This document shows, in pieces, positions 36,263 to 55,834 of a stretch of DNA of 64,000 bases (positions within the stretch are counted from its first letter, which is position 1; every line of letters begins with the position of its first letter). A program made the translations under genes and the position numbers. Origin of the DNA: Tribonema minus (lineage: Eukaryota; Sar; Xanthophyceae; Tribonematales; Tribonemataceae); NCBI GenBank assembly GCA_017506865.1, contig JAFCMP010000517.1, positions 372,001-436,000 on the forward strand, in the 5' to 3' direction. The notes beneath the pieces are model-generated. The model searched no databases and was not told where the DNA came from. It saw nothing but the letters and a program-made list of their open reading frames with translations.

Positions 36263-36592
36263 CGTAGATCTGCGGGCGCCTAGCTGCACTAACGGTGATG
36301 GGCACAGCTCCAGAGCGGACTGCTGGATACGAACCTGAACAGAGTGGCGAGTCTTCACCTTGAACTTATAGTTGATTTTTTCAGCCTGCTTTTGCAGCGA
36401 CATCTGAGAGGCGTGTATGCCGCCCACTAGTTTGCTTACAGGTCGCGTGTCGCTCTGCATCGTTCGATGAAAGGTGGGAGACTGAACTCCAGGGGTTGTG
36501 TGCCTTCGGTGTCTTTTGCCGCCAGATTTTGAACACCGAACCTCGGGCTCGCTCAAGCTTAGTCGCGCAGTGCCAGTGCCAGCGGCGCACGC
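36263..36592. promoter_or_regulatory. Shared divergent promoter region mL45/FIGNL1
   Basis: This 330-bp interval separates two head-to-head start codons. No TATA box or other core element is obvious. Similar spacing is seen at 33123-33426 (SDHC/SmE) and 53589-53867 (RING protein/signal-peptide protein). Confidence 0.5.
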
Positions 36593-39500
36593 ATGAGCTT
36601 GCAGCAGCACCAGCACCAGCACCGCGATGAGCGACAGATACTGCAGGCTCGCTATGAGCAGCTGCTGTCGGGTGCGTCTCAGTCATCTGCCCCACACAGC
36701 AAGGATCAGCGAGCGCTCACGGACCTGTGCGCCTGGGGACTCATGCTGGCTGAGCTGGAGGCGATCTCGGCAGGAGAACAAGTAGAGCCTAAGTACGCTA
36801 TGTGCTTGCAGTTTCTCGTGCGGAAACATGAACGCGCTTTTCAGCAGGCGCGCTCTGTGCGCCGGCCGGCGTTGCAGCTGCATCAAGAGGGAGACGAGGA
36901 CATGACAAGCAGTGCGTGGTTGTCAGCGGACCAGCTGCTGCAGAGGCTGCCTACGCTGGCACGTAAGGCAGGGGCGGCGGCTGTCGCAGCGCCGCCTGCT
37001 CAATGCCGCCCCGGTGCTGCCGAAAGTGCCACCGCTGCTGCTGCTTCACCACAGCGGGGTCAACTGAACGGCCACAGCAGCAGCATCACGGGCAAGATGC
37101 AAGGGTCATATCCCAGGTCGGATGGGGCTGAGCATGAAGAAGTTCATGAGAGAGGTGCGTGGCAAAATGGCTGCCCCAACCCTCAGATGCCAAACGCCTG
37201 GAACTCGGCACCAGCTAGCAAGGCGCCAGCCTTGCACGCACAGCAGCGGCCGCAACCCCCATTGCACCAGTTTCAGGAGCATCAACATGATGAGCAGCCG
37301 CATGCTGCGCAGCGCCACTCCACGGAGCTGCAGCCGCCGCAGCAGCACTACTCACACCCGCAGCATTCGCAACAGCACCAGCAGTACCAGCAGCAGCACC
37401 GCGAGCAGCGCCACCAGCAGCAGCACCGCGAGCTGCACCACCACCAGCAGCAGCAACATCAGCAGCACCATCAGCAGCACAACGGAGGGTGGCAGCAGCG
37501 CCAGTCGCCCCCCCGGCAGCAGGCAAGCACCAGCTCCTTCTACGGGAGCAGCGTCGATGCTAGATCGCGCGCCGACCCCTGCAGCAGCAGCAGCAGCAAT
37601 GGCGGCTCGAGCTGGGGGCAGTTACGCGGCCACCGCGGCAGTGCTCAGGACATACCCAGCCACAGTGCTCCACGTTACGGCGACGCAAGCGGGGGCAGGG
37701 GGCACGCGCCGCAGCAGCAGGGCTACGGCCCGTTCAAGCGCGCATCGGAATACGGGGACCTGGCGGACGATGATGGCGGCGGCGGCGGCAGCGGCGGCTG
37801 GAGCGCAGGCGGCGGCAAGGGCGTGGGGGACTACACCGTGGGCGCAAACGGCCACGGTCGCATGCCAGGCGCAGCAGGGCTCCGCAAGCGCAAGTTTGAA
37901 CCGCCACGGCGCGAGGACAGCGGTGGCGGTGGCGGCGGCGGCGGCGGCAGTAGGAATGGCGGCGGCAGCGGCGGCAACGGCGGCGGCGGTGGCGGCGGTG
38001 GAGGGGGGCAGGCGCCACGCCCCGGGGGCGGAGGGGGGAGGGGAGGGGACGGGCGAGGGGGGGGAGGAGAGGGGGCGAATTCGGAGCAGCAGGACGCTCT
38101 TCCGCCAGAGCTGCAGCACTGTGACGCGGAGATGATCGAGAGGATCACGAAGGAGATCATGCAGGTAGGACGGAGCCGCGGTCTTGGTACATGTGCGATC
38201 AAACAAGCGCGATGGCAGGCGCAAAGGCTCTGGGATCGCCTGTCGCTGCTAGAAATTCTGCCCTGTGAAGAGAAGATGCGCACCCCATCGGCAGTTGGCA
38301 ACGGGTATGCCAACGAGCTCTGTGGGGTGCCATCTTCCTACCTACCCCTGGTGCACGTGCACGCACCTTGCACCTACGCTGTCGTGATTTCCCTCGGTGT
38401 TTTTGCACGCAGATTGGGGATCCCGTTACGTTTGAAGACATAGCGGGGTTGGAGGGTGCCAAGCGCCTGGTTGTGGAGCTGGTCTGCTGGCCGATGCAAC
38501 GGCCTGAGATCTTCACGGGACTGCGCAGTCTGCCTAAGGGGTTGGTGAGTCACCCCTGAGCAGTGAAGTTGAAGTTTGTGACGGGTGCATTGCGCCATTG
38601 AGATGAGTGCAGTTCAGTGCAGTTCAGTCTGTGCACTCAAATTTTGTTATAGCAGCAATTGCTTGATGAGGTCTTAACGCGACAGCGTATACTTTGAGGG
38701 GCTGGTGAGGCACCTATGAGCAAGCATACTTGAAGTGTGTGACAGATGCTAGATGAGACCTTATTTGCAACTGCGCAATGTGCAAGATGATACTAGATGA
38801 GACCTTTTTTGTAACTGCGCAGTCCAGAGGGTGGTGAGTCACCCCGCAAGCAAGTGCACTTGAAGTGCGTGACAGGCGCAACAATTTTATTATTTTATTA
38901 GATCACCACGTGACTGCGCAGTTGAAGTGCGCGACAACAGAGGTACGTTCGTGGGCTAGTTTCAGCGCAAGCCACACAGCGTGCAGTGCAGCTGGCAGAG
39001 AGGCGTCAGCACTTCTTGACATACTTGCACTTGACATGGTGCCCTTGTATCTCTCCACCATGACTTGAGTGGAGTTCAGCAGCCATCACTTCTCATACAG
39101 TCTGATTCACTTTGAACACATGGTCCCAATTCTTTCGCCAGCACTGATATGTACTAAAGGCAAATCGACTAAAACACGACAGGTTAATCTTGCGTGAGGC
39201 TCAGGGGACAACATTCAAAGCTCTGCAGCCTGGCTTTACCACTCCTGTACCCAAGTCTGGCATCACCGCCTCACTCAACTGGTGTCGTCCTATCAACCTG
39301 CTGCTGCATCCTTTGCTGGTGTCAGTTGCTCTTTGGTCCACCGGGCACAGGCAAGACGCTCATCGGCAAAGCTATCGCCCACGAGAGTGGCGCCACCTTT
39401 TTCAGGTACTACAAGAACCTTAATAGTCATTTCTGCTTGATGATAAGTCAGCATCGGCTGTACGTGTGTAAATCGCCAGCCATTCTGCCAATACAAGTGC

Positions 39501-42500
39501 ATATTCCTTGCTTTGGGAATAGCAGAGCCTGCGGAAGGTGGTGTCGTTTTCTAGGGCGCACTGCAGCCTCGCCGCTGGGCCATGATGTGATGAAACAGGC
39601 CTGTACAAGCACATGCGCTTTGAATCTCTTCACCTAGAAGTACAAATGCACATGCATGAGAACAGGGGGCGCATTGCGAGCCGCTGCTGACTCTCGAGAC
39701 ATGTTCAGGCACATCCACGGCCATGAGGGTCCGGTTCGTACTGTCCCGCCCAGCAGTACATGTAGGATTGAACGCATCATGTCAGTGCTCGTAATGCATG
39801 CTCATGGCCTCTGTGAAGAGAGGGCTGCCTGTGGGCACTGCTCGTGTGCGAACCAGTCTGCTTGCGCAGCATTGCCTTTGAAGCGTGCCAGGCTCTGAAA
39901 GTACGCGTGTATGGTCATGCTGTCATCCGTGCATGTCACCGCACTCACTTACCTGCGGGCATATCGCCATATGCTACGGTGACAACATGTTGAGCGCTGC
40001 CGGCTGATGCATGTTGAACATGTTTGCATTGTGCCTTGCATCGTGCCCGTAGCATAAGCGCGTCAAGCCTCATGAGCAAGTGGATCGGAGAAGGAGAGAA
40101 GCTGGTGCGCGCCCTCTTTGCTGTTGCTGCCTACCGCCAGCCATCTGTCATTTTCATCGACGAGGTAATGCACTTGAAGTATGTACTTGAAGTATGGAAA
40201 GTACATACTAATAATTCTCGCTCAGGGCGCAAAAAAATCAAGATGGTGCATGTCCATGAATTTGCATCAAAAATCTACGTTTGTCTTGGTGATCACTTTG
40301 AAACTGTCTCAAGCACTACCGCACACTTCTAAACGACATCGCCATATGGCATCTCCCCCCAATTCATGTACTTCGAAGTATGTAGCTCTGTGCATACACG
40401 CATCCAAGTGGAAAGCAGCAGGCTGTATGCGATGTGCTGGCTGTTGCACGCAAGCAAGCATCGCTGCTGAGTGCTGAGCAATGCTGCTGAGCAATGCTGC
40501 TGAGCAATGCTGCCTGTGCATGCGGACAGCATGCTGTGCCAGCCCGGCACATAACGTGATATTCCTCATGCAGAAAGAATAGAAGAATGCTCAGCTGAGC
40601 AATGCTGCACGTGCAGGTGGACAGCATGCTGTGTCAGCGCTCAAGCGACGAGAACGAGGCCTCGCGCCGCCTCAAGACGGAGTTTCTGGTGCAGCTCGAT
40701 GGCGCGGGCACCAAATCCACAGACAGGTCAGCGCTCAATCTACGTCTGCTGCTTCTCCTGCAAGTTGAACTTCTCAAAATGCGGACATGTGTCATGCCGC
40801 ATGAGCATTTGACAGGAGTATGTGATGTTCAGCCTGTGGAGGTTCGCAGTGAGTGAGATGCCATGCTATGCCATTATACCTGCAACGGTCACAGACATGC
40901 ATTTATTCTGCAAGGTGTTCGTCCAGTGATGGATCATGCTTCACTTGCAGCCAAATCCTTGGCATGCATGCGTATGTTCTGGCTGTTTTCTGCTACCTGA
41001 GCATGGTACCGGCTGCTCTTCAAACACAAGCACATAGTCTAGTGATAGTTGCATCGATCGTTGAACTTCAACCTCAACTGATATGTGTTTGAAGTGCTGA
41101 AATGTGTGCGTCTGCGCATGTCACAGTCCGCTTTTGCAGAATATGGCAGTGCTCACATTGTGGCTGCACGCCGCATAGCTTGCTGTCACCTGTGAAGCCG
41201 CGACTGTAGTCTCTGGCAGACTTCCTGACCTTGAACTTCAACTCCTGAGTGCTTAGACGCCTTGGACGGGTGCCTCGCCTGATATCTTAGTACATGCGTG
41301 CCAAAATCAGCTCACATGCCGCGCTTGCCGCGCCATCATTCACAGTCCATCCCTGTTCTCGCAACTTCAGTCAGCAAGGCGCACATGCATTGTCTTTAAC
41401 CTCATCATCGAACCCCTCTGCTGTGTGGCCATACTGCGCTGCAGGGTGCTGGTGGTGGGTGCTACAAACAGGCCGCAGGAGCTGGACGAAGCCGCTAGGC
41501 GGCGATTCGTCAAACGCGTGCACATTCCGCTGCCCGACAGGTGCGCTGCGGCGCAGTCTCTGCTTGAAGTGCACTTGTAATGCAGTCGGCGGTCGCGTGC
41601 ATGCGTGCGTTTTCAATCAGACGCAGGCCCCACCCAAGCCGAATCGTGGGGGCCTTCTTGTTGGAAGTATTGTACGTCGTAGTCTATGCATTTGATATGG
41701 ACACTTGCAGAAGTGTGGCGGCGCTGTCAAGGGAAGATACTGACAGACCCGTCCCAGCAAGAGCCACACTGAGCTGTGAGTGCCCTTGTAACTCCTATGC
41801 TCTGGTTGGTCGTCCATGAATGTCAGGAATGAAGTGAGCGATGAGCATGTTAGCGCTAATGTGAATAAGCCTCGGCGGTTGCCGCCGTCACTGGTGTCCA
41901 GTGAGCACTGATCATGTACTTGGTTGGCAAATGCTCCCTTCTCAGCAGCTTTTTGCCATCATTATCCTAGGTCGACCGCCTTTTTGAAATAAGTGCTGTT
42001 CACGCGTACAGGAGTGGTGCAAAAGCCAGTTGAATGACAGCGTACTCATATGAACAATGTACTTTGATTATTTCGTAAACTGCAATGCAGGTGGTCCGTG
42101 CACAAACAGCATTGACAGATTCATCAGCACTGACAGCAAGTGCATCTTTACTGAAATCAAGACCAATACACCACTCTTCTCTGTGGGCAATCATGCACGG
42201 TTACCCCCCGTTCAGTGTGATGAGGCGGCATGTGCGTATCGCCATGGCTTGCTCTTGTGTGCAGCGTCGCACTTCTTGACCGCCTGAATACACCATGACA
42301 GCACACCCTTGCCATATGCTGAACCTACCCCCCCCCCCCCCCCCCATGATACCTACCCATGCATGCATGATGTTTATTCTGATGCCATTGCTGAACCTAC
42401 CCGTGCCCCCCCCCCCCCCCCCCCATGATACCTACACATGCATGATGTTTAATCTGATGTCATTGCTGCAGCGCTGGACGCGAGCAGCTGCTGCGGCGGC

Positions 42501-44083: not shown

Positions 44084-44862
44084 AAGCCTCGCAACCTCCA
44101 GCAGTACGGGTTGTCTCGGTCGGTGTCCATCTGGTTTTGCATAGTGAGGCAACACTTGCCGGCCCTACTTCCATGCAACTCCCTCCGGCCTTGTGTCGTT
44201 CAGACGCTTGGGTGTTGTTGACAACTTGAATGCTGGTGCCCCGGACACAAGTTACATGCCAGCGACTTTTGCACTGACGTTCACGCAAAGAAAACCCGCG
44301 TTTCTCGCCGTCCTCGCCGCTTCAACCGTCGCGAGCAACGGCGCTCGCTCTGGTTGGTTCGACACGAAGGGCCACCTGGGTGGTCGTTGACTGCGACTTA
44401 GCGCTTGCGTCACTGTCATGGGAGCAAGCTCACACAAGAACGGTTACAGAATTAACTGATGATATTGTATTTCTTTATACTGCTGACACATGCGAGCGTG
44501 CCGGTCACATAGCAGCAATCAGTCTCAGGCTGAGCTTACCTGTTGCCGCCAACAAAGTGGGCACCACCCACCTCTGCTCAACAACAATTTTCTTTTTTTG
44601 CGAAACGGCTGTAACTGCCGAACGAGTTGTCAGCAGTTAAAAAAGCGCATGAACTGCATGAACTGAACGAGTGTGCTGCGCGGCGGACTGTGAGGTGGGG
44701 GGTGCTCTTTCGCCGTGCTTGATCGCGCGCCAGGCTGGGCCTCTGGCGCCAGGCAGCAGCAGCATCATCAGCAATGACTCGTCAGTGACTGCACAGCACC
44801 ACCTTCACCAACATCAGCAACCACGGAGGTATGGCAGCACCTTCATTTGCAGGGAGCGACAA
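44084..44862. other. Intergenic region FIGNL1-Kelch gene
   Basis: No exon is supported. The Kelch frame is open upstream of its first ATG from about 44671, so 5' coding sequence or a short leader exon may lie here. Confidence 0.4.
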
Positions 44863-47800
44863 ATGAACATTTCTGACAGCAGCAGCAGCAGTAAGACTAA
44901 CGACAGCGGCACCGGCGCTGACACGACTCTGGAAACATTCGAGTTGTTTGACGGCGGTGATTATGCATCCGACAGCGAAGGGTCGTCATGCGGCAGCAAT
45001 GCGTGGGGTGCAGACGAGGTATATAGCAATGGAAGGGCTCAGCATGGCCCACAGCAGCAGCGGCCAGTTCGCCACAAGAAAAGGTCCGATGTGGCGGCCC
45101 AAGTGCAAGAGTTCCTAGCTGCACTAGCTCAGCGCGCCGACGACGAGGCGGCGGCTGCAAGCCTCACGACCACGCAGTTCTACCGCTGTGCAGTGTGCAC
45201 GCTGCCCCATGGGACCTGCTTGCATACTTCAGCCTGGCTTGCCAGCCACAGCAGCCGCGATACTGGAAGCACTGCCGATGCCCTAACCACCTCCCTTCCA
45301 AAGGACGACATCCAGGTAGCACTCGACGACATCGTGGACATCTGCGCGGAGGGCACACAGTACAACCGCGACATCTCAGTCATCCGTGGCAGCTCAGACA
45401 TATTCCAAAGCGCTGCCTGCAGCAGCGTGCAATGGGTACAGCCTGGCACTGGCCATGTGTCCCCCCCCCCCCGCGGCGGTCACACCCTGGTCCTCCTCGA
45501 GGGGGACACCGCTGCGCTCTTGTACGACTCACGCATGCTCGTCATGTTTGGCGGCATGAGCAAGCAGGGCTCCAGCCATACATTTACGCCTTCAGATCCC
45601 CCGAGCAGGCCCACGAATCCGCCGGCAGCGGCGGCGGCGGCAGCTGCCACAGCGGCAGCAGCAGCAGCAGCTGTCTATCACGGCGACACACACATCATGC
45701 GTATGGCCACAGGCAAGTGGGAGAGGGTGGAGGCAGCTGGCGAGGTGCCTTCTGCGCGCTACGGTCACGTGGCAGTTGCCATTACCCCGACAACAATGTG
45801 GCTGCACGGGGGACGTACCAGCAGCAGCGCACAGCAGGCGAGCGACACGTTCCTGCTGCACATCGGCGGCAGCAGCAGCGGCAGCAGTGGCAGCGGCACG
45901 AGCTGCAGCGATGCCAACAGCGGCAGCACCAGCCGCCGCGGCAGCAGCAGCAGCAACAGCAGCAGTAGCAGCGGCAGCAGCAGCAGCGGGCACACCACCT
46001 GCAGCAGCGGCGGCAGCGCCAGCGGCAGCCACGGCGCCGGCGGCAGCAGCAACTGCAGCACGGGCCCGCGCTGGGAGCGCGCCGTGCCGGCGAGCCCGGA
46101 CATCGCGTGCGACGCGCCGTCGCCGCGCGCGTGGGCGTCCGCCGCCTTTGCCCCCGCGCAGGGGCGCGTCTTCTTGTTCGGTGGCTGCGACCTCGCCACG
46201 GGCGCGTGCCTGAGCGACCTCTGGGCGTGGGACGTGCGCACGCGCGCGTGGAGCGAGCAGCTGGTCAGCGGCGCGCCGCCGGCGCCGCGGCATGGCCACC
46301 AGATGGTGGCGTGCGGCGACGGGCGCCTGCTGGTGCTGGGGGGGTGCTGCGTGAGCGCCGCGCAGGAGGGGGACAGGCTGGAGGCGTGGGAGCGGCGGCA
46401 GCGCGGGGTGCGCGCGGCGGCGGATGCAGTGCTCAGGTGCGTGTACATTTAAATGTTTGCCAGAATCGGTTCAGAAGTTCTCAAGTCATGGATGATGGAG
46501 GAGTGTGTGAACCGCATAGTCGTGGTCTGTGTTGGGGGGGGGACGAAATGCTGTGTTGCATGTACATACATGCGGCGGGCAGCGGGAGGCTCGTGTGCTT
46601 GTCTGTCGGGCAGGGACCATGGTCTTGTGTTGCATGTACTTTTTATTAATTCTCGCTCAGGGCGCGAAAAAGCCCAGATGTTGCATGTACATGCGACGGG
46701 GCAGCGGGCTCGGTGCAGTATTGCCCAGGGGTGAGGTACGAAGCCGATCGAAAACATGCGTCAAGAATACACGGATCCTTTGTGTGTTGCACCTTGCATG
46801 CAGGAGCAGCGGGCAGCCGCAGCTCAGGGCTGCCGTTGCAGCAGCGCTCAAACGTGATAGATGGTTTAAATCAGCATTGGGGTGTGGGCGGAGGCGGCAT
46901 GTGGCGTGGGTATGATCGCAGCAGCAGATGCGCTCGCGCCCGCAGACCACAGCGCGCGTTCGCAGCTGCCACCTCACCACGATCCCTCCCCCTAACCCCT
47001 GCCCCCGCTGAACACACGCGCGACGCTCCGTCGCCCGACGCAGGGCTTACACCACTGAAGACGAGGGCATCGAATCGTCCGCGCGAGCCCTACTTCAACA
47101 GTCGCGGTCGGTGCCTACGGCAACTGATAAGCAGTCACGGCTCAGCGAGTGGCGGCGCTCGGCGCGTGCGCAGGCGCAGCTTGCTGCGAGAACGGCGGCG
47201 GACGAGGCCGCGACCGACGCGCAGGAGGCGCGCCTTCAGGTGAGGCGTTGGGGGCGGTGACTGGCGCTGGGGTGTGGCGAGCGATGAGGAGCGCGGCATG
47301 TTTTACCTGTGATTGAGAACGATGTGTATGCATGACGGTGATTGGTGCTCGAGATCTGTGCTACTGGTGCTCTCATTTGGCAGCTTGAGGCTCAGGACGG
47401 TACTTGAGCTCTCTGCGTCTGTCTGCAGCAGTCACTCGTGAGTTGACATCAGCCGTCTCATGCCTCCGCACGCACAGAGCCTCACTTCTTTCTTGCGACC
47501 TCATCGTCCATCAGCGCTGTACGCTTCCACAATGGCACCAACGGTGGCCCTGACACTGCCGCGCCTCTGCTGCACCGACCGTCCGACTGTCGCACCGCAG
47601 GCCCTCATGACGCAGCAGGCGGCGGCAGCGCTCTGGTGCAAGCGCCAGTCCGTGCACCCCTACGCCACCGTGGACCTGCACTGGCTAGACCCAGACGCTC
47701 TTATCTGGACCCCCGCCACCCCCCCCCCTCCCCCCCATTCCTTCCCCCCCTCCAAGCACCACAGGGGGGCCCCCCACAACCCCCACAACCCCCAGAGCAC

Positions 47801-50792
47801 CACTGCCACCGCAGCAGCAGCAGCAGCAGCAGCGCTCGGCACCGCCCCCCCCGCGCGCATGCTCTTCTCCGCGGTGCCCGTGGGGGGCAGCAAGGTGGTG
47901 GTGTGGGGGGGGTGCGCGCCGTCCCCCCTCGCCCCCCAGACGCTGAGCGGTGACACCTTTGTCCTGGACCTTGCGGACAGGCACGGCCCGCGGTGGTACT
48001 CGCCGCGTGCCGCAGACACGGAGGAGGCCCTGCAGGAGCAGGTCGCGGCGGCGGGGGCGCAGCTGCGGCGCGCGCAGCGGGGGCTGCTGGGGCGGCGCGC
48101 GGGCGCGCGGCGGCGGCGGGCGTCGCGCGCGGCCGCACGCTCGAAGTCGCGCAGGTACATATAGCAGCGGTGTGTTGCGGTGTGCTGTCTCGCGTTTGGA
48201 GCATGTGTTGATCATCTTGCAGTCGCCACGGACGGGCGGGTCTGCGCATGTAGCTTGGTCGTTGCCGACGGCGCCGCTTGCAGGCGTGGCGGTGGCTGCA
48301 TGATGGCAGACCATGACGATGGCACACAATCACTGCTGTATGAATCTCTTTGCACATTTGGTCTACAACCTGCTTTGTCTGCAAAGGAGATTGCGAGCGC
48401 GCGCCTGCGGCACACCCCCAGCCTGATTACTGATCCACTCACCGCGTGACAGCAATGCTCAGAAGCCACAGCGTACGCTTTGCATCTGCGCCGCGCACGT
48501 TTTCCGGTGCCTTGTTTTTCAAGCATCCCTGCGTTACCCCCACTCTCACCTTGCCCGCCCATTGCCTCACCGATAGCCCGTAGGGTTAGGGTTGGGGTCA
48601 GGGTTAGGGTTAGGGCTGGTCAGCGTGTGACTACGGCACATGGCCAACTTCCTCACGCAGCCCTGTCGACAACACACCACGCCACGACCACCGCCCCACC
48701 CGCACTCGAACAGTAACAATTTCTCACGCAACACCGCTGATCATCATCACCACCCGTCCCGCACGGCGCGCAGGCGGAGGCCATCGTACGCGTGCGCCTG
48801 TGGCGCGTGGCCGCCCTCCTCGCGCAGTCCCGCGCCGCCGCCGCCGTGCCCTCCCACGCCGCCGCCGCCGCCGCCGCCGCCGTGGGCCTGCGCGTCCACC
48901 TCTTTGGCGGCTGGCGCGGCGGCGCATCCTCCGCTGCGACGCTCGTTCTCGACCTGGAGCAGCCGGCTGACAGGGCGCGGCGGGAGGACGCGGAGCTGCA
49001 TGCGCGGCTCGAGTGGGAGCGGCGGCGGCGCGAGGCGCGCGCGGCGGAGCGCGGCGAGCGCGCGCGCGTGGCGGCGGCGGCGGCGGCGCGCGACGCGGGG
49101 CGCGCGCGCGCGGCGGAGGCCGCGGTCATGGAGGCGGAGGACGAGAGGAGCAGGTGGGGGTGTTAGGTGTCGCAGTTTGTGTGTGCTGATGACAAGTTGA
49201 AGGAGTTGGAGACTTGTAGGGCGTAGGGGGCGTGGCGTATCAAGTCCTCCTGGAGGCCCAGTTGTAGCTGGCGTGGCTCAGCATAGGTGGCACTTGCGTG
49301 CAGCTGAGCTGCAGATTCGCTGTGCGACGAGTTGCATACCATCTTGCACGCTTGACAGGGTGTCCGCCCCTCAAGCGGAAGTAAACAAAGTACTTGAAGA
49401 ATGAAAAACGAATCAAAAAGATCGTTGAGAATGTTATTTGAAGTGCTTGGGTGCAGGGTTGTGTGGGGACTGTGTCCTGCACGCTGGCGCTCCTTGGTCG
49501 TCTCCGTGGCAGTGCACTAGGGCGGCAGCGCATTAATTACTGTCTGAGGTTGGCGGAAGGGGCGCATACAACAAGGGCAGGGGGCATGTTGCGTAGTCTA
49601 CTTCAAGCAGTATATTCAATTGTGACGCGCGCAACCTCCAACAGCGCAACCGGTGTGCACATACATGACATCCAGTGAACTACCCTCACACAATGCGCCA
49701 ACGGAAGTGCCATCAGCCGCTGAGAGATTTGCTGCTCATTAACTCTGAGCCATGCTGCGCACGCTGCCGCAGCCGCTGGCCGCTCGCAACGGCGCCAGCG
49801 CTCCGCTCGCTGCGGCGTCACCACGCATCGCTGAGCGCCGCAGTGCACTAACTCTGCGCCGCCGTGTGCTGCGCTGCGCGCGTCGCCGCAGGCACTGGCC
49901 GCTGACGACGGCGCCCGCGCTGCGCTGCGGCGGCGCCATGGACACGGTCCTGTGGCTCGACTGGGACGCGCCGCTCAGACTCACAACGGGGAAGCCCGTG
50001 CCCACGGGCGCGTGCGTGACCTACAGGGTCTACATGCGCGGCGGGTGGCGCAACTGGTGCAAGGGGGACGCCGTCAGGGTGCTCAAGAGGGAGGGGGTGC
50101 ACGGGGGGGTGCGCGCGCCGCTGCTGCAGCGCGGCGTCTCTCAGGGCTCCGTCCTCTCGGGCGACGACTCTGCGGACGAAAACGCATTCGTGGCCGACGA
50201 TGACAGCCTCGGCGGCGGCGGCAGCACTATTGCCGGCAGCGGCGGCGGCGGCGGCAGCACCGTGTGCGGCAGCGGCACGAGCGCCGTCACGGCGGCAGGC
50301 ATGGCGGCGCGCGACGGCGGCAGCGCGGAGGCGGCGCGCATCCTGCGCGTGCGCAAGGGCGGGCGCTACGACGTGCACTACGACGCGGGCGGCACGGAGG
50401 CAGCGGTGGCGCGGCGGCGCCTGCTGTGCGCCGCCGCCGAGCCGTGGAGCGTCATCTACGTCGGCGAGCAGCGCGCGTACTGCGTGGAGTGCATCGTGCC
50501 GCAGGCCGTGCTGGAGCGCTACGCGAAGGCGGCGCGGCGCAGGGGCGGCAGCAGCGGCGGCAGCGGAGAGTTGCGCGTGGCGGCAGAGTTTGCGCTGCAG
50601 GTGCGCGGCTGCGAGCTGCCGCAGGAGCGGTGGAGCCTGCACGGCGCCGCCGTCACATTTATCACGGGCGGCTGCGGCGGCAGCGCTCAGAGGCAGCAGC
50701 TGAGCAAGGTGCGGCAGCGGCTCAGCGAGGCGCAGGAAATCGATGAGGCATTTGCCAAGTGCGCGCCGCGGCTCGGCGCACTGGGGTTTTAG
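44863..50792 (+). CDS. Kelch-repeat protein with coiled coil and novel C-terminal part
   Basis: Five exons are visible: 44863-46436, 47044-47239, 47601-48154, 48774-49153 and 49892-50792 (TAG), about 1,200 aa. Exon 1 holds an acidic/Ser-rich N terminus, a short Cys cluster (CAVCTLPHGTC), and Kelch blades with LVMFGG, GHVAVAI, LHGGR, VFLFGGCD, DLWAWDVRTRAW and PAPRHGHQMVA, interrupted by Ala and Ser/Gly runs. Exon 2 is a helical linker. Exon 3 adds another blade (VVVWGGC, TFVLDL) and a charged helix. Exon 4 has VHLFGGW and an Arg/Glu/Ala coiled coil. Exon 5 has CVTYRVYMRGGWRNWCKGDA and GRYDVHYDAGG, resembling a small beta-rich reader-like fold, but I cannot name it. Exons 1-2-3 and 4-5 fit in phase. 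Exon 3 (phase 2) does not fit exon 4 (phase 0), so a small exon or different splice site is missing. Kelch propellers usually bind proteins; the partner is unknown. Confidence 0.8.
46550..46720 (+). repeat. Repeat cluster with dispersed repeat copy D
   Basis: In Kelch intron 1, TGTTGCATGTACAT followed by ATGCGGCGGGCAGCGGG and TGTTGCATGTACATGCGACG then GGGCAGCGGG form direct repeats about 125 bp apart. Between them, 46643-46680 carries ATTCTCGCTCAGGGCGCG, AAAAAGCCCAGATG, the 5' end of the dispersed family seen in full at 24568 and 40203. Confidence 0.7.
48581..48616 (+). repeat. Interstitial telomere-like repeat
   Basis: TAGGGTTAGGGTTGGGG, TCAGGGTTAGGGTTAGGG: about six GGGTTA-type units in Kelch intron 3, about 160 bp upstream of the exon 4 acceptor. 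Confidence 0.8.
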
Positions 50793-53084: not shown

Positions 53085-53588
53085 TTACGAGTACACTTGC
53101 ACCTGCTGCCGTATTTTGGTTCTGCAAGTGGGGCAGTCACGCAGGTTGACGGCGCATTCCCGGCACAGCACCATGTGCGCGCACGGCATCAGCAGCACGT
53201 CCCTCGGGTTGTCCATGCACACTACGCATGTGTTGTTGTCGTTCGGCTCCCCCGCTGCTGCGGAGGCTGCCGCTGCCGCCGCCAGTGTCGTAGTCGGTGC
53301 CCCTGTTGCATCTGCAGGGGGTGCTGTTGCTGGCGGCCTCGAGCTGTCCGAATGCTCTGCTGCTGCGCCACTTGCCGGCGCACCGCCCGTTGCTGTTGTT
53401 GCTGTAGCTTGTCTCGGAGCAGGCCTTGTCGGAGGCGTCGGCCTGATGAACTCGATGTGATCGTCCCTGCGCTTTTTGAGGACCAGCAGCAGGCTCAGGA
53501 GCCCCGCCAGCAGCGCCAGGAATATGTCGAAGTCCTCCACGCCCGCCCAATGCAATGTGCGCCGCACCAGTCCTGGATGCTGCTGCAT
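53085..53588 (-). CDS. Membrane-anchored RING-HC E3 ligase-like protein
   Basis: A single exon of 167 aa. Residues about 18-35 are one hydrophobic segment (FDIFLALLAGLLSLLLVL) followed by KKRRDD, a likely stop-transfer. A Pro/Thr/Ala-rich linker leads to a C-terminal RING: CVVCMDNPRDVLLMPCAHMV, then LCRECAVNLRDCPTCR. The Cys/His spacing is the C3HC4 RING-HC type seen in small membrane E3 ligases such as the MUL1/SP1 group, although the large intermembrane domain of those proteins is absent. Ubiquitin transfer is inferred from the family; substrate and membrane are unknown. The ATG at 53588 was chosen because the product begins just before the membrane segment. The frame is open further upstream without support. 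Confidence 0.8.
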   Translation of the reverse strand: MQQHPGLVRRTLHWAGVEDFDIFLALLAGLLSLLLVLKKRRDDHIEFIRPTPPTRPAPRQATATTATGGAPASGAAAEHSDSSRPPATAPPADATGAPTTTLAAAAAASAAAGEPNDNNTCVVCMDNPRDVLLMPCAHMVLCRECAVNLRDCPTCRTKIRQQVQVYS

Positions 53589-53867
53589 CGCTCTAGGTCT
53601 GTGATGTTCGGAGTCGACGACCTCGTGCCTGGTTGCAGATTGATGTAGCGCTTCTTGACGCGACTGCTCTTCGGTGCCGGGCAGTGAGCAAAGGTACCAG
53701 TGAGATCCGGAAAGTGTGTGTGTGCACGTGGTATGCGTCGTGTATTTCTGGGAGCACAGAACGTCTCTCCTAGATGCAACACGTGTAACTTCAACAGTTG
53801 CGTGAAGTTCGTGATTGATCGCTGTGTTGCGAGGAGCTGCGTGGTCCCTGGGTTGAGCAGATCGTGC

Positions 53868-55834
53868 ATGGCACTGCTGCGCTGCAGCTTTCAAGCTGTG
53901 CTGCTGCTGTGCAGTGGAGTCCTTATGCCAGCTTATGCTGCAAAACGAGGAGGTCAGGGCGAGGCCGTGGGCTTTGGAGGCTACAAACATGTCCCTGAGG
54001 GGGAGCTGGCCCAGGTTTGTTGCTTCTCCCGTGCCTACGGGTGCCGCTGCTGTTGCAGAGATCTTGCGTAATCCGTTTTCACAATGCCGATGACAGCGAC
54101 ATCGCTGGCAGGCTACATAGCTCAGCGAGTGAAGGCAGCATGGCTGTCCCGTAGCTGGTGTAGGTGCTGCTACAGGAATATGTTTATATGTTTATCGATA
54201 ATGAATATTCGAATCCCCTTGCCTGTGTATGCACGTAGCAAAAGAAACAGTGTAGCACCTGACTCGACACGGTCAGCGGGTGACGATGCTCTCACGATGG
54301 GGCGGGCGCAATCAGCTGCGCGTAACCATTAAAATTACGCCGGCGCAGCTGCGCACCTTATGCCTGCACAATTATATGTTCACAGCTGCTCCATTGACTG
54401 ATGAGCATCAACAGAACACAGGCATTCTGCAACGCATTTGCTGTCATCTTCACGCAACCCCCTTACAGGAGCCCAAGGAAGGTGACGTGCCATTGCTGGA
54501 GATGTCAACTGACAGCACTGATCAACCTCATGTGCCCAGCTTGAAGGTCGGCGAAACGATGCGCCTGGATCATCTAGGGCCTATCATCATCAATTCGGAT
54601 GGCACAACACGTCGGATCACCAATTGGGACACGATGACCGAACGTGAGCGCCAAGTTGCGCTGCGCAGGATAGCAAAGCGAAACAAGGAGAGGATCGAAA
54701 CTCTTCAGGGGGGGCAGCCACCTGTGACCAGGCAGGAGGAGGCAGGGGTTGATGCTGTCGGTGAGCTATGAGCACGCGGCGAGCCGGGAGATAAATTCTT
54801 CATGTTGTTTCAGGACGCGGCCGCGACAGCATAACTGTTTGTTGTACGGGCTGTATAGCAACGGTGGCGGCATGGGGGCTAGCGTTCATGGCCATGGCTG
54901 ACATCATGATTGCAGCAGCAGCAGAAATTGCATTACCCGAAGGGGCCGCCGGCAAGCGCAGGGGGGCGCCCCCCCATTACGAAGTCGATGAGATGCATCT
55001 TGAAGTAGTGCATGTGGTGGTGCGCACTTGTGGTACACCGGAGGCTGAGGCGCTATGTGGGCTTGTGCGTAAGGTATGGCATGATTCCAGGCCGCGCATA
55101 ATGCGCTTTGTCCCTGTAAATAACAGAAGCAGCAACCTATGTTGGATGACACCTCGTCAGCGGTGTGCTCCACTCAATTGGATTTATGCTTGCACGTCTG
55201 AATGTTTGGGCGTTGTGCATTGCAACGGAGCGACTGAAGCGCAACATTGCAATGGACTGACTGAATGGAGAAGCTGGTGTGCTGGCAGATGCTGAGTGTT
55301 GCCTGTTCAGTCACTATTAGAAACATCATGGCTTGGCTTCACACCTGAAATCGTACTTCAAAAGCTGCCTTCTCTTCAGCAATCTTATCAGATGTCAACT
55401 TATAAATGTAAGCATATGGGTTGCCTACGCCAGAAGTATACTCTGCAGGCAGTCAAGTATACCCTGCAGGCAGTCTTGCGCCAGAAGTATGTACATCCTG
55501 CCATCACACCTGCGCTTCTAGCATGCAATGCCGATGTTGTCAGCATTGCTGTGCTGAGAAAAGTGTCTATGTTTGTTAGTAGACAACGATTTGCAGGGAC
55601 TTACATGTAACCTTTTGTCGCTGTCCATGCATGCTGTGATTTTGCAGACAAGGTCGCTAGGTTGCATGATGATGGTGCTAAGTTATGCCTGCATTTCAAA
55701 AAGTCCTTCAAAAGCGGCTCCACATTCTACTTCAACATCAATCGCTTCATACCGTTCACCAGTGCTCCAATGTGGAGTCAGTGCTCCAAGGTGGAGTCCG
55801 TTATTTGGCGCCTGGAAAAAGTGATGTCCTTTGG
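53868..55834 (+). CDS. Signal-peptide protein with conserved GPxxxNxDG block
   Basis: Exons 53868-54014, 54469-54760, 54814-55073, 55380-55407 and 55648-55834 are compatible in phase. The last three are less certain, since a TGA at 54769-54771 would end the protein if the third exon is not used. Exon 1 is a clear signal peptide (FQAVLLLCSGVLMPAYA). Exon 2 carries LKVGETMRLDHLGPIIINSD, GTTRRITNWDTMTERERQVA and LRRIAKRNKERIE. This pattern (GPxxxNxDGTxxRIxNWxxMTxxER...KRNxER) is one I associate with a conserved domain of unknown function in algal and fungal proteins. Exon 3 adds a hydrophobic stretch (AWGLAFMAMADIMIAAAAEI). The last exon ends MSFGG-type at a gtaagt donor, so more exons should follow. 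The start lies 279 bp from the divergent RING gene. Confidence 0.6.

Follow-up and report, generated by a model that had tools for sequence, protein, structure and literature searches.

Recurrent short tandem duplications at exon borders in Tribonema minus and their probable part in lengthening a FIGNL1 intron

Why does an intron hold several copies of its own splice donor together with the end of the preceding exon? This question is raised by intron 2 of the FIGNL1 gene of the xanthophyte Tribonema minus (assembly GCA_017506865.1), located in a 64,000-nt stretch of contig JAFCMP010000517.1 (positions 372,001 to 436,000, forward strand). This stretch is called the window, and coordinates refer to it unless another locus is named. 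A preliminary description of the DNA had proposed that the border between exon 2 and intron 2 was copied three times, leaving decoy donors or a route to intron growth.

The exons from 38413 on, joined by GT-AG borders and reading frame, encode an AAA ATPase. Its three best matches among solved structures are all Fidgetin-like protein 1 chains (3d8b with E 8.3e-112, 8r64 and 4l15), and the alignment to 3d8b is ungapped across the exon 2/3 junction, in agreement with the earlier assignment to FIGNL1. Exon 2 (38413..38544, plus strand) is delimited by its open frame, GT-AG borders and the protein match, and exon 3, which carries the Walker segment (39326..39405, plus strand), by the gene model and the protein match. 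Between them lies the phase 0 intron 2 with a length of 781 nt (38545..39325, plus strand) and the real donor GTGAGT at 38545. Exon 1 (36563-38164) consists of one long open frame with many Gln/His and Gly tracts, for which Pfam gave no match at 0.01. Besides FIGNL1, the window holds a Kelch-repeat gene further downstream (44662-46449, plus strand) and a RING-finger frame on the opposite strand (53088-54191, minus strand), while an Rfam scan of the window returned zero matches at the gathering score.

To describe the array, the region 38000-39600 was inspected and aligned against itself. The source unit (38505..38589, plus strand) consists of the last ~40 nt of exon 2 (38505-38544), the donor and ~45 nt of intron; the preliminary description had put the exon part at ~25 nt. 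Only two full copies of this border exist and not three, both on the plus strand and both retaining the donor sequence, as had been claimed. Copy 2 (38667..38749) has a donor-like CTG/GTGAGG at 38705 and is 73% identical to the source over 85 columns (72.9% with E 5e-9 for 38505-38588 against 38667-38749 in a search against the window). Copy 3 (38814..38880) has a donor-like GTG/GTGAGT at 38834 and is 75% identical over 72 columns (38520-38589 against 38814-38880 in the self-comparison). The copies also resemble each other, with 76% identity over 50 columns between 38697-38745 and 38826-38875. In addition, we found two plus-strand pieces whose exon likeness was judged by eye: one resembles the exon start of the unit only (38750..38777) and the other runs into copy 3 (38794..38821). 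In the self-comparison, the stretches 38745-38777 and 38789-38821 are 91% alike. A tail fragment without donor follows at 38900..38937 (plus strand), in which 23 nt are 87% identical to the exon and 27 nt are 63% identical to copy 2. This piece is partial, and its local score of 31 equals the best shuffle and is not significant by itself. In total, the array covers about half of the 781-nt intron, an anatomy that supports the proposed intron growth. A comparison of the exon 2 end with the 3' end of intron 2 gave no match at E 0.01.

The two full copies are real and not a product of chance, because alignment of the border segment to them gives scores of 52 and 55, well above the maximum of 31 in 2,000 dinucleotide shuffles of the remaining intron and the maximum of 32 in 2,916 random stretches of the same length from the surrounding 264 kb. 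As the copies are direct, lie beside the border and are in register with it, a tandem duplication across the exon-intron border, as first suggested, is a well-supported reading of the sequence.

A dispersed repeat or introner-like element that brought its own splice site and inserted several times could also place similar donors in an intron. A hint in this direction is that a 17-mer of the intron half occurs at 9 places in the assembly with at most 1 mismatch (two of them in the array itself), compared to 2 for a reversed control. However, when 411 nt and 261 nt of the array served as queries against the 158-Mb assembly, the DNA searches returned the array's own place only, and not the genome-wide scatter that the preliminary description had named as the contrary outcome. 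These searches, run for the FIGNL1 array, skip very common words, and therefore the confinement to one locus is not absolute. Moreover, part of the unit is FIGNL1 coding sequence that is conserved, and at other borders the repeats likewise include the exons of their own gene. With the array found at FIGNL1 alone, a dispersed element is disfavoured and in our view very improbable.

While the preliminary description dealt with a single case, the feature recurs at donors and acceptors of several genes, starting with FIGNL1 itself. A second border duplication comprises the acceptor and the start of exon 5, which begins at 40617 (40493..40638, plus strand; copy 40493-40543, source 40586-40638; 87% over 53 columns). 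In the third, the 3' end of intron 6 is duplicated in tandem (42310..42468, plus strand; 84% over 91 columns) with units at 42310-42393 and 42383-42468, and the duplication ends 4 nt before exon 7 (42472). Both of its units contain long poly-C tracts (42327-42425). Together with the exon 2 array, these are the only direct repeats listed between 38080 and 44200 at E 0.01.

In other genes, the arrays can be longer. In a TCP1-family gene on contig C51 (L032, 1-860), five tandem units spaced 180-200 nt apart, the real acceptor included, each consist of an intron 3' end and an exon start, and the likeness is greatest from the CTGCAG acceptor into the exon. Besides the real site, seven copies are found at one donor of L039 and five at one acceptor of L041. 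The clearest young case, L046, has an 85-nt tandem unit of 47 nt exon and 38 nt intron, and TTGA stands at the start and near the end of this unit (one case, read by eye), which would suit a mechanism based on microhomology. A pair of light-harvesting paralogues that are ~90% alike differs in this respect: in the paralogue on C1 (L043), a 92-nt copy of the exon start with 92% identity lies 176 nt upstream of it, and the fetched stretch of the paralogue on C79 (L042) has no such copy. As a side observation on this gene family, the assembly contains 92 light-harvesting exon matches, as expected of a photosynthetic organism, and the best-matching solved chains of the one light-harvesting protein tested are named LHCI-n, ACPI/ACPII and CAC, names that would suit an alga of the red lineage or similar better than a green alga.

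The degree of divergence also bears on an assembly or sequencing artefact. A near-identical contig pair does exist in this assembly (C70 and C489, loci L044 and L045; 99.85% over 1,364 nt), although there is no direct evidence for an artefact. A misassembly would give near-identical copies, whereas those in FIGNL1 share 73-76% identity, with several insertions and deletions between them, and the L032 tandem repeats are 69-82% alike. Consequently, we consider this explanation hardly credible. C489, a contig of 11.8 kb, may be an uncollapsed second copy.

Altogether, a same-strand search yielded 43 copies at 23 borders including those of FIGNL1, of which 13 are donors and 10 acceptors, with one to seven copies per border and the nearest copy at a median distance of 142 nt. 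Inverted pairs were looked for separately in 34 introns, and the single pair obtained was not at an exon edge. The dinucleotide of the splice site is mostly retained, with GT in 21 of 26 donor copies and AG in 15 of 17 acceptor copies. For a view of the decay along the unit we used ungapped profiles, because the anchored gapped identity of the intron halves had a chance level of 0.71. In 39 copies (FIGNL1 excluded), 30 exon positions have an ungapped identity of 0.77 and intron positions 1-6 one of 0.81, and the value falls to 0.48 at intron positions 7-30. This step at the splice site fits what would be expected if one lineage, that of the source, were constrained. Mismatches in the exon part of 30 copies are distributed over codon positions 1, 2 and 3 as 29, 19 and 59 out of 415, 416 and 415 sites, which fits the pattern that a freely changing copy combined with synonymous change in the source would leave. 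We also considered selection on the coding content of the copies and rejected it: the third-position excess (P 5e-6) is explicable without it, since synonymous change in the source can yield such an excess.

Do the copied donors have a function of their own? Three matches to U1 were found in the assembly (E 4.4e-14, 65 bits, just under the Rfam cut-off of 69.5), and pairing was computed from the 5' end of one of these U1 genes (65 bits). The predicted pairing is -9.2 kcal/mol for the real FIGNL1 donor compared to -8.6 kcal/mol at 38705 and -9.2 kcal/mol at 38834. Thus, both inner sites have donor-grade predicted complementarity to U1, about equal to the real donor. The value of the real FIGNL1 donor is reached by 0.8% of 1,522 interior intron GTs. 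A switch of the donor to 38705 or 38834 would lengthen the product by 160 or 289 nt, neither of which is a multiple of 3, and in both cases a stop would be met directly after 38556. Therefore, only the outer donor at 38545 gives intact FIGNL1, and the bounds of 38545-39325 are the sole donor/acceptor pair that does so; an in-frame product, as looked for in an alternative donor, is not obtained from either inner site.

These properties are compatible with the idea that the copies are selected as decoy or alternative donors, and that the capture of U1 by an inner site serves to regulate splicing or triggers decay of the FIGNL1 mRNA. Against this idea, duplication affects acceptors with about the same frequency as donors (10 borders compared to 13), and the mean predicted pairing drops from -8.4 kcal/mol in 43 real donors to -6.6 kcal/mol in the 26 donor copies, which together with the loss of GT in some of them is the picture of decay. 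In addition, RNA folding predicts that the second inner donor (38834) is largely paired, with 38902-38909. Because acceptors are hit about equally and the copied donors are weaker on average, selection for decoys seems unlikely to us, and the term decoy donors of the preliminary description holds in the sense of predicted U1 pairing only. For the array as a whole we make no claim of structure, because its folding has a z of -1.43 and 9 of 100 shuffles are equally stable.

Recurrence of border duplication is a plain observation. A different matter is whether borders are hit more often than the rest of the gene, and here we used 35 introns, which were delimited by reading frame and model position in seven TCP1 genes and one HSP70 gene. 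From the proposed introns 27 were kept, and those beside missing exons or with a poor fit of frame or length were dropped; for L039 and L041, the bounds of one intron per gene were placed manually so as to span the array. Repeat families had to be local, on the same strand and with an E-value of at most 1e-3, and the expectation was obtained by sliding each of the 26 families found along the intron that holds it and the adjoining 120 nt of both exons. A splice site is reached within 5 nt by 20 of the 26 families, with 8.4 expected, and 17 of the 35 introns contain such a family. In a stricter test, which demands that the border is crossed by at least 10 nt on both sides, 12 of 26 families qualify against 6.1 expected (P 0.004), whereas at 90% identity the same test is not significant (2 of 8, 1.2 expected). 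L039 and L041 were already known to hold a copy when they were fetched; after removal of the two ascertained families, 18 of 24 reach a splice site with 7.1 expected. Among the genes chosen without sight of repeats, 7 of 10 families do so (3.2 expected, P 0.013). Besides, a further HSP70 gene showed no local repeat in 5 introns, and L037 and L040 had no repeat family in the one definable intron each. Ab initio gene prediction over 264 kb, intended to provide a larger set of introns, was dropped after the self-trained model drifted and missed exon 2 of FIGNL1.

The excess at splice sites could also stem from the way old duplications are recognised. If duplications fell at random over introns and exon edges, those at borders would stay recognisable for longer through the constrained exon half of their source. 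A twofold advantage in the detection of exon-side pairs is sufficient to remove significance in the genes picked blind (P 0.12), a fourfold advantage brings the excess of all families to the edge (P 0.042), and donor motifs are not enriched in local repeats over 264 kb (GGTRAG 0.90 vs 0.78 per kb). On the other hand, such a bias accounts less well for the 14 families in which some pair is at least 85% identical, 12 of which extend to a splice site (3.7 expected; P 0.0002 at a twofold and 0.009 at a fourfold advantage), though most of them are in L039 and L041 and were not picked blind. In consequence, we regard this explanation as quite possible, if short of an even chance. A border hotspot for duplication is suggested but not proven, and the far-reaching reading that exon-intron borders here are hotspots of recurrent tandem duplication, that introns grow from both ends and that exon definition must choose the sites is a tentative one, to which we give limited credence. 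Exon definition is needed in that reading because duplicated sites, some of them equally strong, sit on the intron side of both exon ends.

For the FIGNL1 array, the explanation that we favour, and consider probable, is recurrent short tandem duplication across exon edges that is tolerated via exon-proximal splicing and lengthens introns. A segment straddling the border of exon 2 and intron 2 would have been duplicated repeatedly at short range, giving rise to an old and decaying tandem array. The same process would recur in several genes as direct duplications that cross or reach exon edges, with a spacing of mostly 70-200 nt, at donors as well as acceptors. As the molecular event, we infer replication slippage or microhomology-mediated template switching. 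The copies would be tolerated because the spliceosome joins the exon-proximal site, that is the first donor copy and the last acceptor copy, and this choice may be made by exon definition. Under exon definition, the first donor and the last acceptor would be expected to prevail at such arrays. The surplus stretch of exon and its splice site would then remain in the intron and decay, presumably neutrally, leaving the intron longer by one unit per event.

Tandem duplication with splice signals as a route of intron gain is reportedly described by Gao and Lynch (2009) and Hellsten (2011). In three further sources, single tandem duplications involving splice signals likewise appear as a known route of intron gain (PMC3443670, PMC4974935, PMC2891723). 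In the route reviewed in PMC3443670, the duplicated segment is exonic, and the new intron forms between the two AGGT motifs. The FIGNL1 case resembles this route in that a short tandem duplication carries a splice motif and the surplus is spliced out, but here the unit straddles an intron border, the acceptor of the intron has its origin outside the unit, and the outcome is a longer intron with several copies. The intron gain in the potato RdRp gene is presented in PMC4974935 as a direct tandem duplication that took in an intron-exon structure together with the 3' splice site, and an 83-bp tandem duplication within the first intron is mentioned there as well. Direct tandem duplication including a splice site is common to both systems; however, the potato case is one recent event with a new intron and added exon sequence, in contrast to repeated events at many borders with no new exon here. 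For Drosophila, PMC2891723 reports novel intron positions by exon duplication, and the likeness lies in a partial exon duplication with splice motifs that alters gene structure. Introner elements are reported in PMC9860276 as a genome-scale source of introns, mainly in fast-evolving lineages such as green algae. The duplications described here would be comparable in being a source of intron sequence on the scale of a genome, whereas introners are dispersed and alike between genes and the FIGNL1 array occurs at its own gene only. Similar intron sequence across many genes, the mark of introners, was not found for the FIGNL1 array in the assembly searches, in which very common words are skipped. 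Within open-licence literature, seen in part, we found no report of recurrent border duplication inside introns, which is weak evidence of absence. The type of mutation is known and its recurrence is unusual; here many borders are affected, the units are repeated and no new intron is evident.

If border duplication proves to be genome-wide, it would be a route for lengthening existing introns that is distinct from the origin of new introns. It also offers a natural experiment on the choice of splice sites, with many tandem donors and acceptors beside the real one, some of them equally strong. Finally, annotation has to be aware that such copies give false exon matches, because in our TCP1-family search the same model positions were matched repeatedly within three genes.

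Two further observations concern motifs in these loci. Interstitial repeats of the TTAGGG type are present in the window (48581-48619), in L038 (5612) and in L006 (1876), one of them inside a TCP1 gene locus. In the 34 introns of FIGNL1 and L035-L041, the motif TTGAAGT is enriched near intron starts, where 9 of its 25 occurrences lie within the first 60 nt (2.2 expected). The reverse complement ACTTCAA is likewise enriched near intron ends, as 5 of its 21 occurrences fall into the final 60 nt (1.9 expected); the two motifs could pair in RNA.
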